The notes under the pieces: generated by a model
Told to the model about the DNA's origin: nothing
The model's input: the letters and a program-made list of their open reading frames with translations, nothing else
Database searches by the model: none
Made by a program: the position numbers and the translations under genes
Part shown: one piece after another, positions 32,617-40,202 of the stretch
How positions within the stretch are numbered: the stretch's first letter is position 1
Layout: every line of letters starts with the position of its first letter
Assembly (NCBI GenBank): GCA_009692105.1
Contig: SHZS01000009.1
Coordinates: 1 to 42,477 of the forward strand
Reading direction: 5' to 3'
DNA length: 42,477 nt
Source: Gemmatimonadota bacterium
GTDB taxonomy: Bacteria > Gemmatimonadota > Gemmatimonadetes > Longimicrobiales > Gaopeijiaceae

Positions 32617-34302
32617 ATGTCGGTCCGCTGGGATCCACTCCTTGCCGCTGCCCTGTCCCGGGAGCTGTCTCGATCCCTCTTGGGGTCCAGTGCCCGGAGT
32701 GTGCTCTTCGACTCAGAGCCCCGGAGGCTCCTCCTCTACACACCCGACCATACCCTCGCCATCGAACTCCACCCCTTGGCCGGGTGGGTCTCCCTGCTCC
32801 CCCCGTCGGATCCCCTTCCGGGGGCGCATCCCCTGAAGGCGCGGATCACCGGGGTCCGCACCCTCCAGGACGAGAGCGCCCTCGTCTTGGACCTCAGCCC
32901 TTCCAGGGGGAAGGGCGCGGGCGCGGAGATCGTGATCGAGCTCGTGGGAAACCGATGGAACGCGCTCCTCGTCGAGGGAGGGAGCAGAGCGATCCGGCAC
33001 GTGCTCCATCCCCGGGGGCGCGGACGCCGTCCTCTCCAGGTGGGGGCGCGGTACGAGCCCCCCCCCTCGACGGGGCGACGGACTCCCACGGACGAGAGAG
33101 ACTGGGCGGAGCTGACGGGCCCGCCTGACGGAGACGCCGCCGGGCCGGAGAGAAGCCTACTCGACGGAATCGCTTGGGCGTCGTCTCTGAACGCCCCATA
33201 CCTTTCGGGACCGGATGGCTTCGAGCGGTGGCGCGAAATTACCACGCCCACGAGCTGGGGCGCCTTCCTCCTCCCCACGGCGCACGGGCTCCAGCCATAT
33301 CCCGTCGGGCTCAACCGGGCCGAGGCCCAGCCCTTCCCTTCCCTGATCGAGGCGTTTTCCGCCGCCCGTGAACGGTCCACGGACGCACCCCCTCTGCATT
33401 CGCTCTCGATCTCGTCCAATCTCGTCCGGCGCGCCGAGCTTCGAATCCGTCGCCTCCGCGCGAGAACCGAGGGGCTTCGGCGCGAGCTCGAGGCAACCGT
33501 CGAGCCGGGGGCGCTGCGCGAGACGGCGGACCTGATCCTTGCCCGGTTCCGAGAAATCTCGCCGAGAGCCGAGCGGGTCGTCCTGGAGGGGTTCGACGGA
33601 GGGAGACGGGAGGTCACCTTGGACCCTGCGCTCCCGCCCGCCGAGAACGCGAGCCGCTACTATGCCGAGGCAGCGCGGGTGGAGAGAGCAAGGCATGCCC
33701 TTCCGGAGCGGATTCGGGAAGCCGAGGAGAGAGCAGAGCGTTGGACCAAGCTCGTAGACGATCTTGGAGCGGGGCGGGTCGAAGCGGCCGAAGTCGTCCG
33801 GGCCCTCGGCCGGGACCCAGCAGCGGCCCGAGGGACGGCCCGAGGGAGGAAGGGCACACCCTCCGACTCGTTGCCCTACCGCCGCTTCCGGAGCTCCGGA
33901 GGCCTCGAGATCCGGGTCGGCAAGAACGCTCAGCGGAACGACGACCTCACCTTCCATCACTCCTCTGCCGACGACGTGTGGCTCCACGCACAGCAGGCAG
34001 CCGGAGCCCACGTGATCCTTCGTTGGAACCGGAAGGACAATCCACCGGGAAGGGACCTGATGGAGGCGGCGGCGCTCGCGGCCCTGCACTCCGAGGCACG
34101 CCATTCGGGGAGCGTGGCGGTCACCTGGACCCGGAGGAAGCACGTCCGGAAGCCAAGAAAGTCGGGGCCCGGGTCGGTCGTGGCGGAGCGGGTCGAAACC
34201 CTCTTCGTCGAGCCCGACCCGACGCTCCTCGAGCGTCTCCTATGGGGAGAGGAAGAGGACGGGGGGGAGCACCCGATCCCCCGCCAGGAAGGCCCCGGCT
34301 AG
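32617..34302 (+). CDS. NFACT family protein (RqcH-like)
   Basis: This 561-residue NFACT protein is related to bacterial RqcH/Rqc2, which binds stalled 50S-peptidyl-tRNA complexes and directs alanine tailing. It has an NFACT-N fold (IVIELVGNRWNALLVEGG), central coiled-coil helices (about residues 270-430, RRAELRIRRLRARTEGLRRE) and a C-terminal NFACT-R/DUF814 domain (IRVGKNAQRNDDLTFHHSSA, DVWLHAQQAAGAHVIL, KHVRKPRKSGPGSV). The Asp-Arg motif of RqcH-type proteins seems to be Asp-Glu here (LQDESALVLDLS), an eyeballed alignment. The ATG at 32617 is chosen over 32572. Its stop shares the CTAG with the trpA stop. Confidence 0.88.
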   Translation: MSVRWDPLLAAALSRELSRSLLGSSARSVLFDSEPRRLLLYTPDHTLAIELHPLAGWVSLLPPSDPLPGAHPLKARITGVRTLQDESALVLDLSPSRGKGAGAEIVIELVGNRWNALLVEGGSRAIRHVLHPRGRGRRPLQVGARYEPPPSTGRRTPTDERDWAELTGPPDGDAAGPERSLLDGIAWASSLNAPYLSGPDGFERWREITTPTSWGAFLLPTAHGLQPYPVGLNRAEAQPFPSLIEAFSAARERSTDAPPLHSLSISSNLVRRAELRIRRLRARTEGLRRELEATVEPGALRETADLILARFREISPRAERVVLEGFDGGRREVTLDPALPPAENASRYYAEAARVERARHALPERIREAEERAERWTKLVDDLGAGRVEAAEVVRALGRDPAAARGTARGRKGTPSDSLPYRRFRSSGGLEIRVGKNAQRNDDLTFHHSSADDVWLHAQQAAGAHVILRWNRKDNPPGRDLMEAAALAALHSEARHSGSVAVTWTRRKHVRKPRKSGPGSVVAERVETLFVEPDPTLLERLLWGEEEDGGEHPIPRQEGPG

Positions 34303-35096
34303 GAACGCTGCCGGACTACTCCGTCCATTGCCGCCCGAAGCGACGACAGGAACGCAGCGCCCTTCGAGACCCCCCCTGCCCCGACCGCATCGAGCAGCGC
34401 ACTTCCCACGATGACCCCATCCGCGACTTCCGCGAGGAGCGCGGCGTGCTCGGGGGTCGAGACCCCGAACCCAACCGCGACAGGAAGATCCACGGCGGCC
34501 CGGATCGCCTCGATCTCTCGCGCGAGCTCGACCCGAAGCTCGGTCCGCGCGCCCGTGACTCCAGTGCGAGATAGGTAGTAGAGGTACCCCGAGGCCCCGC
34601 TGGCCACGACGGGAATCCGGTCAGTGGACGTCGTAGGAGCCAGAAGTCGGATCAGATCCAACCCGCTTCCCTGGACCGTCTCCTCCAGCTCGGGATCCGC
34701 GTTCGCGGGAAGATCCGTGATCAGGAGGCCGTCCGCGCCGGCCTCCCTCGCCGCGGACACGAAGGCCTCCAGCCCGAAGTGGTAGATCGGGTTCAGGTAG
34801 GTCATGAGGACGACGGGCGTGTCGGCCGATCGTCGGAACTCACGGAGGACGTCCAAGACCCCTCGGACGGTCATCCCCTTCCGCAAGGCCTCGAAGGTGG
34901 CCTTTTGGATGGTCGGTCCATCCGCCAGCGGGTCGGAGAAGGGGATCCCCAGCTCGATGAGGTCCGCGCCGGCCCCCGCAGCCGCATGGAGGAGCTCAAG
35001 ACTCTCCTGCCTGGAGGGGAATCCGGCGCAGCTGTACGGGATGAGTGCCGCCTCTCCCTTCGCCCGGCGCTCGGCGAACGCGGCCGCGATCCTCAA
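34299..35096 (-). CDS. trpA: Tryptophan synthase alpha chain
   Basis: This subunit cleaves indole-3-glycerol phosphate to indole, which passes to TrpB. The 265-residue TIM barrel has E48 and D59 in LIELGIPFSDPLADGP as the catalytic pair. VVLMTYLNPIYHFG and ITDLPANADPE follow, and LPVAVGFGVSTPEHAALL is the phosphate site. It is preceded by, and overlaps (ATGA), the HD-GYP remnant. It ends on the same CTAG as the convergent NFACT gene. Confidence 0.96.
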   Translation of the reverse strand: MRIAAAFAERRAKGEAALIPYSCAGFPSRQESLELLHAAAGAGADLIELGIPFSDPLADGPTIQKATFEALRKGMTVRGVLDVLREFRRSADTPVVLMTYLNPIYHFGLEAFVSAAREAGADGLLITDLPANADPELEETVQGSGLDLIRLLAPTTSTDRIPVVASGASGYLYYLSRTGVTGARTELRVELAREIEAIRAAVDLPVAVGFGVSTPEHAALLAEVADGVIVGSALLDAVGAGGVSKGAAFLSSLRAAMDGVVRQRS

Positions 35097-35374
35097 GTCA
35101 CGTAGTCCGCGACCCTGATATCGTACTTCTCCGGATCGGTCGTCTTGATGATCGCGCGCTTGGGCTCTCCGGTCACAGGATTCAGCTCGTCCAGGCGGGC
35201 GACGACGGGCTCCGCCAGCGGGACTCCCATCGAATCGGCCAGGAGCTTCACTTCGGGCTGGTGAAGGCGCTTCGGGTCGGTGTTCGTTCGGGTCACGACC
35301 GCGAGCTCAAAGGTGTCCAGGATCACGAGGGTTCCCACCGGATAGACGCCGGTCGCCGTCATGAGCGCTTTCAC
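35093..35374 (-). pseudogene. C-terminal remnant of an HD-GYP-type phosphohydrolase within the trp cluster
   Basis: The 93-codon frame encodes only the conserved tail of an HD-GYP-like phosphohydrolase (ATGVYPVGTLVILDTFELA, then HQPEVKLLADSMGVP and EKYDIRVADYVT). The HD catalytic part is absent. Family-like sequence continues in frame upstream of the only start codon, a GTG: the codons at 35375-35386 read DPVL before VKALM. The gene was therefore longer. It still overlaps trpA by ATGA, so it may be translated and keep trpA coupled. It might also have been kept as a free domain. Confidence 0.6.
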
Positions 35375-35447: not shown

Positions 35448-36719
35448 TCACACGCGTCCCGCAGTTCGGTGTGTCACGAGGGCATGCGAATCCTGCGGCA
35501 GCCCGCGCCCCTCGACCCTAGCCACGTGAGCCACATCTTTGTCTCCCCGGCCGCTCAGGCAAAGAATAACCGGCCCACCCCCGATCTCGTCCCTCCCTGC
35601 CCCCAGGAGGTAGGCGACGGCGTGAGCCGTTTCGAGGGCCGGAATGATCCCTTCCAACTCCGACAGCCGATGGAAAGCCTCGAGCGCCGCGCCGTCTGTG
35701 ACCGAGACATAGCGCGCCCGACCAGCCTCCTTGAGAAAGGAATGTTCGGGTCCCACCCCGGGATAGTCCAGCCCCGCGGAGATCGAGTGAGCGGGAGCCA
35801 CCTGCCCGTCCGCGTCCTGGAGTAGGTACGAGAGCGATCCGTGCAGGATCCCGGGCGTGCCGGCCGCGAGGGAAGCCGAGTGACGCCCGGAGGCGATTCC
35901 CTCCCCCGCGGCCTCGACCCCGATGAGCGCGACCTCGGGGTCGTCCACGAAGGCATGGAAGGCCCCCATCGCGTTCGAGCCGCCCCCCACGCACGCGACG
36001 ATCGCCGAGGGAAGGCGTCCCTCCGTCGCGAGGATCTGCTCCCTTGCCTCCCTACCGATGACCGATTGGAAGTCCCGGACGATCCGTGGGAACGGGGCGG
36101 GCCCGACGACCGAACCGATGATGTAGTGGGTCGTCCGGACGTTCGTGACCCAGTCGCGGATCGCCTCGTTCGTCGCGTCCTTGAGGGTCCGCGTACCTGA
36201 CTCGACGGGGCGCACATCGGCTCCGAGCAACTCCATCCGGAAGACGTTCAGCGCCTGACGCTCGACGTCCTCGGTTCCCATGTAGACCACGCACTCCATG
36301 TCGAAGAGCGCGCACGCAGTCGCGGTCGCGACCCCGTGCTGCCCGGCGCCCGTCTCCGCGATGATCCGGCGCTTTCCCATGCGCCGCGCGAGGAGGGCCT
36401 GCCCGATCGTGTTGTTGATCTTGTGCGCCCCGGTGTGGTTCAGGTCCTCGCGCTTGAGATAGATGGCGCCCCATCCCACGGCGCCCTCCAGACGGCGCGC
36501 TCGCGTCAGGGGCGAGGGTCGACCTACGAAGTCCCGGAGGAGGGCATCGAACTCACTCTGGAACTCCGGGTCTGCGAGGGCCGCGACGTACGCGACCTCG
36601 AGCTCGTCCAGAGCCGCGATGAGGGTCTCGGGCACATAACGGCCCCCGAAGCGACCAAACCGCCGCTCCGGAATGGATCCGCCCAAGCTCTCACCCTTAC
36701 GCTGGAGACCTTTCTTCAT
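35448..36719 (-). CDS. trpB: Tryptophan synthase beta chain
   Basis: This PLP subunit joins indole and serine to make tryptophan. The 423-residue protein has [13 protein letters not shown], the PLP lysine K100 in HTGAHKINN, the catalytic Glu E122 in [13 protein letters not shown], and [14 protein letters not shown]. The ATG at 36719 has GGAGG about 12 nt upstream; a GTG at 36737 lies over that site and is the alternative. It is on the minus strand after trpF. Confidence 0.96.
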
Positions 36720-36756
36720 GCCCGGGTCATCCTCCACCGATCTTCTGAATCAGGGT

Positions 36757-37449
36757 TCACGCGGGGCGCCCACGGTCCGGGTTTCCGGCTCCGCTTCCGT
36801 GCGAGGCCTCGGCATTCGCCTCGAGCGCCCTCCGAACGAAGGCCCGGATCCGATCCGGGTCCTTGACCCCCGCCTGGCGCTCGACCCCAGAACTCACGTC
36901 CACCAGGTCCGGCCGGAGCCGAGTGACGGCCTCCGCGACGTTCTCGGGCGAGAGTCCCCCACACACCCCGAGACGAAGCTGGTCGCCGAGATCGTCCCGC
37001 AGGGACGCGAGCGCTTCCCACGGGAACCGCGTTCCCGTACCCCCGAGCTCTGTCGGGTGCCAGGCGTCCAGGAGAACGAGGTCCGCTACCTCCGCGAATC
37101 GCTCGATCGCGCGTGTGATGTCGGCACTCGACCGCACCCGTATCGCCTTCCACAGCTCCCAGCTTCCGAGTCGCCGGAGCTCCGTCAGCTCTGCGGGACT
37201 CTCATCGCCGTGGAGCTGGATGACGCGTGCCCTGGACACGATCGCGGATCTCGCGACCTCCGCAGGCATCAGGTCCGCGGTGACGATCACCAGGGGAACG
37301 GAGAGCGACCCAGAAATGGACGCCGCCTGCTGGGCAGATACGACCCGCGGAGACCCGGGCACCAGCATCGCGCCCACATAGGATGCTCCCGCTGCTTCCG
37401 CCACCTGAGCATCCTCCAGGCGGGTCACCCCACAGATCTTGACCTTCAG
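36757..37449 (-). CDS. trpF: Phosphoribosylanthranilate isomerase with a CTG start
   Basis: This TIM-barrel isomerase converts PRA to CdRP. The 230-residue product from the CTG at 37449 begins with KVKICGVTRLEDA, where the cysteine of KICG is the family's catalytic base. A start at the next usable codon, GTG 37428, removes that motif. The CTG is preceded by AAAGGAGGAGGG about 6 nt upstream and overlaps the trpC stop by CTGA. Later parts (LGVCGGLSPENVAEAV, DLVDVSSGVERQAGVKD) are typical. The CTG start is strongly supported but unusual. Confidence 0.9.
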   Translation of the reverse strand: MKVKICGVTRLEDAQVAEAAGASYVGAMLVPGSPRVVSAQQAASISGSLSVPLVIVTADLMPAEVARSAIVSRARVIQLHGDESPAELTELRRLGSWELWKAIRVRSSADITRAIERFAEVADLVLLDAWHPTELGGTGTRFPWEALASLRDDLGDQLRLGVCGGLSPENVAEAVTRLRPDLVDVSSGVERQAGVKDPDRIRAFVRRALEANAEASHGSGAGNPDRGRPA

Positions 37450-38336
37450 GGCACCCTCCTCCTTTGGCCCAGCGACCTCCGGCGAAGCTCTTTCGGAACT
37501 CCCGAGAGCTCGCGGGCCTTGTCGCCCGGGGTGCCGGCGCGAAGCAGCGCCTCGCCCACGAGAATGGCGTCCACCCCGGCCCCACCCAACCGCTCGACAT
37601 CATGCCGACTCTGGATGCCGCTCTCCGACACGATGATCAGGTCGTCCGGAACGCGGGAAACGAGATCCAGCGTGATCTCGATACGGGTCCGGAAGGTCCC
37701 GAGGTCACGATTGTTGATGCCGAGCACCCGGGCACCGGCCCCGAGCCCCCGGTCCAGCTCCTCGGCGTCGTGGACCTCGACGAGCGCAGCCATGCCAAGC
37801 TCCTCCGCGAGGGACCGCAGCGCCGCGATCTCCGCATCGTCCAAGATTCGAACGATCAGAAGGATCGCGTCCGCTCCCGCCCCTCTCGACTCCCAAACCT
37901 GCTCTTCGCTCAGCACGAAGTCCTTACGTAGCACCGGGACCGCGATCGTGTTCCGCACGCGCTCCAAGTCCTCGAGGGCCCCCCCGAAGTACTCGCGGTC
38001 CGTGAGGACAGAGATCGCCGAGGCCCCAGAGTCCGCGTATTCGCGGGAGAGGGCCGCGGTATCGAGGCCCGGAAGGATCGCGCCTGCTCCCGGGGAGCGC
38101 CGCTTGATCTCAGCCACGAGCGCGACTGAGCCTCCGCGCCGCAGGGCGCGAGCAAAGTCACGAGGGGGAGAAGCCCTTTCGGCCCGAGACCGGAGCTCCC
38201 GCCTCTGGGGGCGGAGCCCCTCGATCTCGCGGCGCTTCGTGGCAACGATGCAGGCGAGGATGTCCTCTCTGGGCTCTCCCGACGACCCCGAAGCGGGACC
38301 AGACGGGTGCGTCCCGGGTGCTTGTGTTTCGGGCAA
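37446..38336 (-). CDS. trpC: Indole-3-glycerol phosphate synthase
   Basis: This enzyme closes the indole ring, forming indole-3-glycerol phosphate. The TIM barrel has IVATKRREIEGLR near the start, the catalytic lysine in LVAEIKRRSPGAG, VPVLRKDFVLSEEQVWES, GINNRDLGTF and IIVSESGIQSRHDV. No ATG or GTG lies near the family start. I use the TTG at 38336 (296 residues, about 30 more than usual). The only other in-frame start, TTG 38408, lies inside lexA. The start is uncertain. The coding start overlaps the lexA promoter region. Confidence 0.9.
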   Translation of the reverse strand: MPETQAPGTHPSGPASGSSGEPREDILACIVATKRREIEGLRPQRRELRSRAERASPPRDFARALRRGGSVALVAEIKRRSPGAGAILPGLDTAALSREYADSGASAISVLTDREYFGGALEDLERVRNTIAVPVLRKDFVLSEEQVWESRGAGADAILLIVRILDDAEIAALRSLAEELGMAALVEVHDAEELDRGLGAGARVLGINNRDLGTFRTRIEITLDLVSRVPDDLIIVSESGIQSRHDVERLGGAGVDAILVGEALLRAGTPGDKARELSGVPKELRRRSLGQRRRVP

Positions 38337-39019: not shown

Positions 39020-39214
39020 ATGCGCACGCCGTTCGCGGCCGGCTCCCTCTGCGGGAGCCTCTCGAAGCTGATCGTGACCCGGGGCACGGCCCTGCGGCCC
39101 CCACCCGGCCCATGGTCGCTAGCGGCCGTGATCAGGATCTCGGAGCGGCCTCTTGTCCCTAAGAGCTTCTCTAAGAGCTTCTCTCTGCCGACGACGCCTC
39201 CTTCAGCGCGTTGA
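39020..39214 (+). CDS. Small ORF after lexA with a strong ribosome site
   Basis: A 64-codon frame follows lexA by 16 bp and has a near-perfect GAGGAGGAAACC just before the ATG. The sequence (MRTPFAAGSLCGSLSKLIV and onwards) matches nothing I know. The second half runs into low-complexity sequence and the end of trpD on the other strand. It may be the start of a former lexA-operon gene whose remainder was lost. Confidence 0.3.
   Translation: MRTPFAAGSLCGSLSKLIVTRGTALRPPPGPWSLAAVIRISERPLVPKSFSKSFSLPTTPPSAR
39159..39182. repeat. Two tandem copies of a 12-bp unit at the trpD stop
   Basis: CTAAGAGCTTCT occurs twice in a row, and the second copy contains the trpD stop codon. The first copy lies just downstream of trpD. 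A local slippage duplication is the simplest reading. Confidence 0.6.
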
Positions 39215-40202
39215 GGGCACGAAGGGCCGCTCCGGAGGAGATGACTTCGCGAGCGCGCGCCACGCCCTCTCCGAGGGATCGGGAGGCGCCCGCCACGTAC
39301 AGACCGGCGGCAGCGTTCAGGAGCGTCACCGTAAGTGCCCCGCCCACGTCCCTTCCCTCGAGCACGCTAAGGATCCGGCCCGCATTCTCCTCGGGCGTCC
39401 CTCCGGCGATCTCTTCCGCGCTGGCGGTGGGGAGCCCCAGCTCCCCAAGGCCAACCTCGAACTCGTGGACCTCGCCATCGCGCAGCTCCGCCACCCGGGT
39501 CACCCCGAGGGGGCTCAACTCATCCATCCCTGGGGAGCCGTGGACGACCATCGCTCTCTCGTGCCCGAGTTCCTGGAGTGCCCTCGCGATGATGGGGACG
39601 GCATCCGGATCGGCGACGCCCACCACCTGCCGGCGGACTCCCGCCGGGTTCGTGAGCGGGCCAAGCAGGTTCATGATCGTGGGGATGCCCAACTCCTTCC
39701 GGACCGGGCCAACGTGCCGCATCGCCGGATGGAGGAGGGGAGCGAACATGAAGACGATCCCAGTCTTGGCAAGCACACGCCCCATCGCCTCGGGAGTGAG
39801 CTGGATGTTCACGCCCAGCGCCTCGAGCACATCCGCGCTCCCACTCCGGGACGTGAACGAGCGGTTTCCGTGCTTCGCGACCCCCACCCCCGCACCCGCC
39901 ACGACGAAGGCGGCCGCCGTCGAGATGTTGAACGTGCCCACGCTCCCGCCGCCCGTCCCGCACGTGTCCACCAGAACGCGGTCGGTCGGCGCCTGCACGC
40001 GGATCATCGCGCCCCTTAGCGCCTGAACCCCTCCGGCGACCTCGGCGGGCGCGTGTCCCTTGGTGCGAAGCCCGGCCAGGAGGGCCGCGATCTGCACCGG
40101 AGACGCCTGACCCGACATGACCTGGCCGAAGGCGGCCGCAGCTTCGGCGACCGTCAGATCGTGTCCATCGGTGACCTTCGCGATGAGCCGGGTTAGCTCC
40201 AT
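39171..40202 (-). CDS. trpD: Anthranilate phosphoribosyltransferase
   Basis: This is the second step of the tryptophan branch: it adds phosphoribosyl to anthranilate. The 343-residue protein has VDTCGTGGGSVGTFNIST (phosphoribosyl site), GVAKHGNRSFTSRSGSADVL, HPAMRHVGPVRKELG and IMNLLGPLTNPAG. It is separated from trpC by lexA on the other strand. trpE and trpG are not visible, so the first step must be encoded elsewhere. Confidence 0.97.
   Translation of the reverse strand: MELTRLIAKVTDGHDLTVAEAAAAFGQVMSGQASPVQIAALLAGLRTKGHAPAEVAGGVQALRGAMIRVQAPTDRVLVDTCGTGGGSVGTFNISTAAAFVVAGAGVGVAKHGNRSFTSRSGSADVLEALGVNIQLTPEAMGRVLAKTGIVFMFAPLLHPAMRHVGPVRKELGIPTIMNLLGPLTNPAGVRRQVVGVADPDAVPIIARALQELGHERAMVVHGSPGMDELSPLGVTRVAELRDGEVHEFEVGLGELGLPTASAEEIAGGTPEENAGRILSVLEGRDVGGALTVTLLNAAAGLYVAGASRSLGEGVARAREVISSGAALRALNALKEASSAERSS

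Follow-up and report, generated by a model that had tools for sequence, protein, structure and literature searches.

trpF of a Gemmatimonadota bacterium almost certainly starts at a CTG codon that overlaps the trpC stop codon

Introduction

Initiation at CUG codons and NTGA overlaps between the stop codon of one gene and the start codon of the next are both already known in bacteria. CUG represents 0.024% of bacterial starts (about one in 4,000 annotated genes) and yields 0.86% of the output of AUG, and an initiator tRNA of the relaxed kind loses discrimination against CUG (PMC11497404). Switches of start codons to CUG are very rare (2e-4 for GUG and 3.2e-5 for AUG, in 36 genome groups), and the compensation of weak starts by the Shine-Dalgarno (SD) sequence is known for GUG and UUG (PMC5622118). 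Published CUG counts may be low because they rest partly on annotation tools that ignore CTG; Prodigal, for instance, considers only ATG, GTG and TTG (PMC2848648). ATGA and GTGA overlaps couple translation by termination-reinitiation (PMC6728339, PMC10666635); neither CTGA nor CTG is mentioned in the main text of these two papers. We found no description of CTGA as a recurrent overlap in the papers searched, and our literature search for a CTG-started trpF or for start codons of Gemmatimonadota returned nothing.

The trpC-trpF junction analysed here has the geometry of the described ATGA and GTGA overlaps, with an upstream TGA and an SD sequence located within the upstream gene, but the shared start codon is CTG, whereas the trpC-trpF junctions of sister species are ATGA or GTGA. 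As in the rare described cases of bacterial CUG initiation, the codon is CUG and its reading by fMet-tRNA is expected; in contrast to these cases, one gene has kept it in two genera, and CTG starts are apparent in five genes within about 42% of one genome, mostly at overlaps. In both this genome and the Escherichia coli TrpCF fusion, trpC is directly followed by trpF, but here the two genes occupy two frames, with a stop between them and no frameshift signal. What seems to be new, as judged from the comparison of genomes, is the retention of a CTG start in two genera, surrounded by ATG and GTG alleles, together with the recurrence of CTGA in one genome.

Results

The trp genes of the window

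The window (the whole stretch of 42,477 nucleotides analysed) is one contig (C32) of a 1.6 Mb assembly in 61 contigs that is 92% complete. The trp genes are all carried by the minus strand: trpD (39171..40202; PF00591 and PF02885) is located upstream of trpC, which encodes indole-3-glycerol phosphate synthase (37446..38336; PF00218, 257.8 bits), and trpB (35448..36737; PF00291, 140.2 bits) lies downstream of trpF; trpA occupies 34299..35096 (PF00290, 287.9 bits). The likely start of trpC is TTG 38336 (LPETQ; the same peptide with TTG occurs in trpC of genome G055), and trpA appears to start at a TTG that overlaps the end of the small ORF before it as TTGA.

This small ORF of 93 codons (35093-35374, minus strand), located between trpB and trpA, has no Pfam match and shares 73% identity with the C-terminal portion of a 491 aa ORF of genome G023. 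It resembles the relic of a longer gene, or a C-terminal domain retained from one, possibly of the HD-GYP type as judged by eye. At the other end, a short interval separates the TTG of trpC from lexA, which is divergently oriented (from 38374, plus strand). Two sequences close to GGATACCC(C)GAA occur in this interval and could be operator sites.

The reading frame of trpF and its start

trpF (36757..37449, minus strand; stop codon 36757-36759) encodes a putative phosphoribosylanthranilate isomerase (PRAI) of 230 aa. The product matches PF00697 with 137.8 bits from residue 3 onwards, covering positions 1 to 192 of the 193 of the profile, and the NCBIfam PRAI models align with it from residue 2. 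Profile and motif thus assign it to the TrpF/PRAI family as a predicted isomerase, and a search of the genome identified a single copy of TrpF.

On the minus strand, the junction reads ...AGG AGG GTG CCC TGA in the trpC frame and, one base back, CTG AAG GTC AAG ATC TGT GGG GTG ACC in the trpF frame. The CTG (37447..37449) and the TGA of trpC (37446..37448) thus share the tetranucleotide CTGA (37446..37449), as the initial annotation had proposed; ATGA overlaps, also pointed out there, are indeed present elsewhere in the window, as are GTGA overlaps. The frame from CTG 37449 corresponds to LKVKICGVTRLED and is open as far as 36757. It is also open for about 50 codons upstream of the CTG, without a single ATG, GTG or TTG. 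A GTG (37426..37428) is the first standard start of this frame and, in agreement with the earlier reading, is located past the N-terminal Cys and after the heptapeptide LKVKICG.

This Cys is presumably the catalytic residue, as established for the family. It is residue 6 counted from the CTG and aligns with residue 7 of the Thermotoga maritima PRAI (1lbm/1nsj), while the CTG itself aligns with residue 1 of the 1v5x chain. The N-terminal K[IV]CG motif carrying the Cys, present here as LKVKICG, belongs to TrpF only if translation begins at or before the CTG. Prodigal, limited to ATG, GTG and TTG (PMC2848648), would consequently truncate the protein, as had been anticipated for gene callers in general.

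Conservation of the CTG in relatives

The family to which the genome is assigned comprises 121 genomes in our collection. We read the starts of trpF in about 99 genomes, drawn from the same family, order and class, leaving out loci at contig edges or misassigned. In 96 of these genomes, the 25-30 codons upstream of K[IV]CG include an ATG, GTG or TTG, and the Cys is conserved in every relative read. The three genomes without a standard start (this genome, G023 and G050) all exhibit CTG at the same codon, at position −3 from the K of KICG, and each time within CTGA; in the last 15 codons, it is the sole near-cognate codon that the three have in common. The TrpF sequences nearest to that of this genome are those of G023 and G050 (61% identity), which represent two species of another genus. 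The alignment of trpF in relatives that the initial annotation had suggested as a check thus finds CTG kept in G050 and G023, with other alleles of the same codon in the clade, ATG in G030 and G136 and GTG in G135, the NTGA overlap being retained in each case. A wider search, mostly in other phyla, detected no TrpF without a standard start among 74 loci. Since the three non-standard genomes all present CTG and their neighbours ATGA or GTGA, this comparison settles the start, and CTG 37449 is almost certainly the start codon of trpF.

In a tree of TrpC and TrpF, the three CTG genomes are grouped with a support of 0.22, inside a clade that also includes G030, G055 and G032 with a support of 0.98. 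The monophyly of the trio being weakly supported, the tree is compatible with one or with two origins of the CTG in trpF.

The Shine-Dalgarno sequence of trpF

The CTG is preceded by an AAGGAGG sequence (37458..37464, minus strand) inside the trpC coding sequence, whose core ends 8 nt before the CTG. It is part of AAAGGAGGAGGG (37465-37454), the first GGAGG core of which is the one ending at 8 nt; the whole motif ends 4 nt before the CTG, with the spacer TGCC, and not 6 nt before it as first described. An AAGGAGG is found in the 16 nt preceding only 27 of the 19,452 CTG triplets of the sampled part of the genome; this rarity and the recurrence of the CTG in two other species speak against a chance arrangement. 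The duplex with the anti-SD has an energy of −11.9 kcal/mol, which ranks fourth among 63 trpF starts of the family, and the three CTG starts rank 1, 4 and 5 (−15.0, −11.9 and −11.8 kcal/mol), in a ranking that each of the other genomes entered with the best of all its possible standard starts and where the three CTG genomes, being related, do not represent three independent points. Strong SD sequences at the CTG starts of trpF fit a compensation of the weak start codon.

Other putative CTG starts in the genome

Screening about 676 kb of this genome (around 42%) and 1.02 Mb of G023, we searched for genes that align with the other genome upstream of their first standard start, after removal of stretches covered by another gene. 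In this genome, four of 177 testable genes have a CTG and lack a standard start for a conserved N-terminus: trpF, mnmE, a NAD-dependent epimerase gene and a gene for a TRAM-domain uracil methyltransferase. A fifth gene, encoding a M20 peptidase, was obtained from a scan of stop-start overlaps. The mirror screen in G023 produced a single CTG gene out of 205, namely trpF, a difference that is not significant.

In mnmE (L229:5805-7181, contig C29, minus strand), the CTG follows an AAGGAGG without any overlap and is replaced by ATG or GTG in sister genomes; the TrmE_N domain begins at residue 3, and a standard start first occurs 18 codons in. The epimerase (L214:15220-16296, minus strand), the methyltransferase (L238:9456-10730, plus strand) and the peptidase (L225:264-1691, minus strand) have apparent CTG starts in CTGA. 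The Epimerase domain begins at residue 13 (first standard start 21 codons in), TRAM begins at residue 9 (18 codons in), and relatives of the peptidase in five genomes match from residue 1 (13 codons in). The start codons of these three genes were read in this genome and those of the epimerase and methyltransferase also in G023, where both are located in GTGA overlaps. Of the five CTG genes, four (mnmE being the exception) correspond to CTGA overlaps with a long upstream frame ending there, and at least three further genes of this genome, besides trpF, appear from their sequences to use CTGA as a stop/start overlap.

Among the in-frame NTGA overlaps of adjacent genes in this genome, the first base is G in 61 cases, A in 43, C in 16 and T in 11, most of the 16 CTGA overlaps having a usable ATG or GTG adjacent and not being counted as CTG starts. 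The CTGA before ThiE and AroK, where an in-frame GTG (−12) and ATG (−4) are present upstream, were not counted, nor were CTGATG cases, in which an ATG follows. Many N-terminal extensions were also discarded, as they reflected upstream genes read in a different frame, or the frameshift of prfB; this gene (L236, minus strand, ORF at offset 6039) itself contains what appears to be the usual +1 frameshift signal, GGGGGTTCCTTTGAC. A strong SD was considered as a general condition for CTG starts and rejected: it holds for trpF in three species and for mnmE and fails for the epimerase and the methyltransferase, the CTG of the latter being without a clear SD.

Discussion

We propose, with a probability of about 0.8, that trpF is read from CTG 37449 by ordinary fMet-tRNA, through ribosomes that terminate on trpC and reinitiate in place with the help of the SD sequence. 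The start and the conservation of CTGA follow from the comparison of genomes; reinitiation, fMet at the CTG and the helper role of the SD would be the mechanism that best accounts for them. A 4 nt NTGA overlap with an SD in the upstream gene, an arrangement that is typical, if not universal, of reinitiation at stop-start overlaps, suggests termination-reinitiation coupling between trpC and trpF. Ribosomes ending trpC at TGA 37448-37446 would already sit over the overlapping CTG, and the AAGGAGG 8 nt upstream would hold them there, allowing reinitiation despite the mismatch of the first base with the anticodon. In an NTGA overlap, the start codon shares its first base with the wobble position of the last trpC codon, and drift of this base from A or G to C would be almost silent in trpC. 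Such a drift has probably occurred, and then been kept, in the lineage that comprises this genome and its sister genus.

Two observations bear on this proposal from the other side. The CTG of mnmE is apparently used without an overlap, so coupling would not be the sole condition for CTG, and the output of CUG, roughly 100-fold lower than that of AUG in published measurements, is hard to reconcile with the role of a biosynthetic enzyme unless coupling makes up for it. A relaxed initiator tRNA (M1 type, C30-G40) was considered as a cause and rejected: the anticodon stem of tRNA-fMet reads TCGGGCTCATAACCCGA both here and in G023, agrees with that of relatives and corresponds to the canonical GGG/CCC, so that a relaxed tRNA is not needed. 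Elsewhere in the collection, genome G019 (L323) encodes an initiator-like tRNA with a CCAGG/CCTGG anticodon stem, in which A-U replaces the first of the three G-C pairs, together with a canonical initiator tRNA at another place.

Translation from GTG 37428, giving a TrpF that is functional without LKVKICG or not functional at all, is what a gene caller would annotate, this GTG being the first standard start. Such a protein would lose the first beta strand together with the Cys conserved in the relatives read, scores 18 bits less on the best NCBIfam PRAI model and would be the sole TrpF next to trp genes that otherwise form a complete set; moreover, the GTG has an SD match of just 4 nt nearby. 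An error of sequencing or assembly hiding a true ATG or GTG might be suspected in a metagenome-type assembly of 61 contigs, but it would have to arise independently in three genomes, the same CTG being found in two genomes whose TrpF is 39% different, and a like error at the same codon would be needed in four more genes, a rate that would wreck open frames. The same CTG in relatives, with ATGA and GTGA nearby, makes both of these explanations very unlikely.

The existence of TrpCF fusions such as that of E. coli (1pii, 7etx) and the position of the trpF frame, −1 relative to trpC and open upstream, could point instead to −1 frameshifting by ribosomes that reach the end of trpC. We give this little credence: trpC ends without a slippery heptamer (GTG CCC TGA here, GAA CGC TGA in G023 and CGG CCC TGA in G050), re-pairing one base back gives mismatches, relatives have separate ATGA or GTGA starts at the same place, and RNA structure at the trpF start is not beyond chance, the local sequence folding no better than shuffled ones (z 0.10). 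Finally, the CTG might have been selected to hold the output of TrpF below that of TrpC rather than being tolerated drift. Its retention in two genera is in line with this, as are the apparent weak TTG starts of trpC and trpA, but the strong SD sequences of the CTG alleles point to compensation and not to attenuation, and CTGA recurs in unrelated genes, so selection for low output seems rather unlikely.

Reinitiation at a tolerated CTG, our preferred reading, suggests a simple rule, namely that overlap together with reinitiation relaxes the start codon. In coupled pairs, the terminating ribosome might nearly free the first base of the start codon, in which case CTGA would be a fourth NTGA form that in some lineages accounts for several percent of these overlaps and escapes notice because gene callers are blind to CTG; we offer this extension tentatively and consider it possible rather than probable. 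trpF would represent a conserved, gene-level case of CUG initiation in a core metabolic enzyme, with natural ATGA, GTGA and CTGA alleles. Gene callers restricted to ATG, GTG and TTG would clip 7-21 N-terminal residues from the proteins concerned, including active-site or nucleotide-binding ones.
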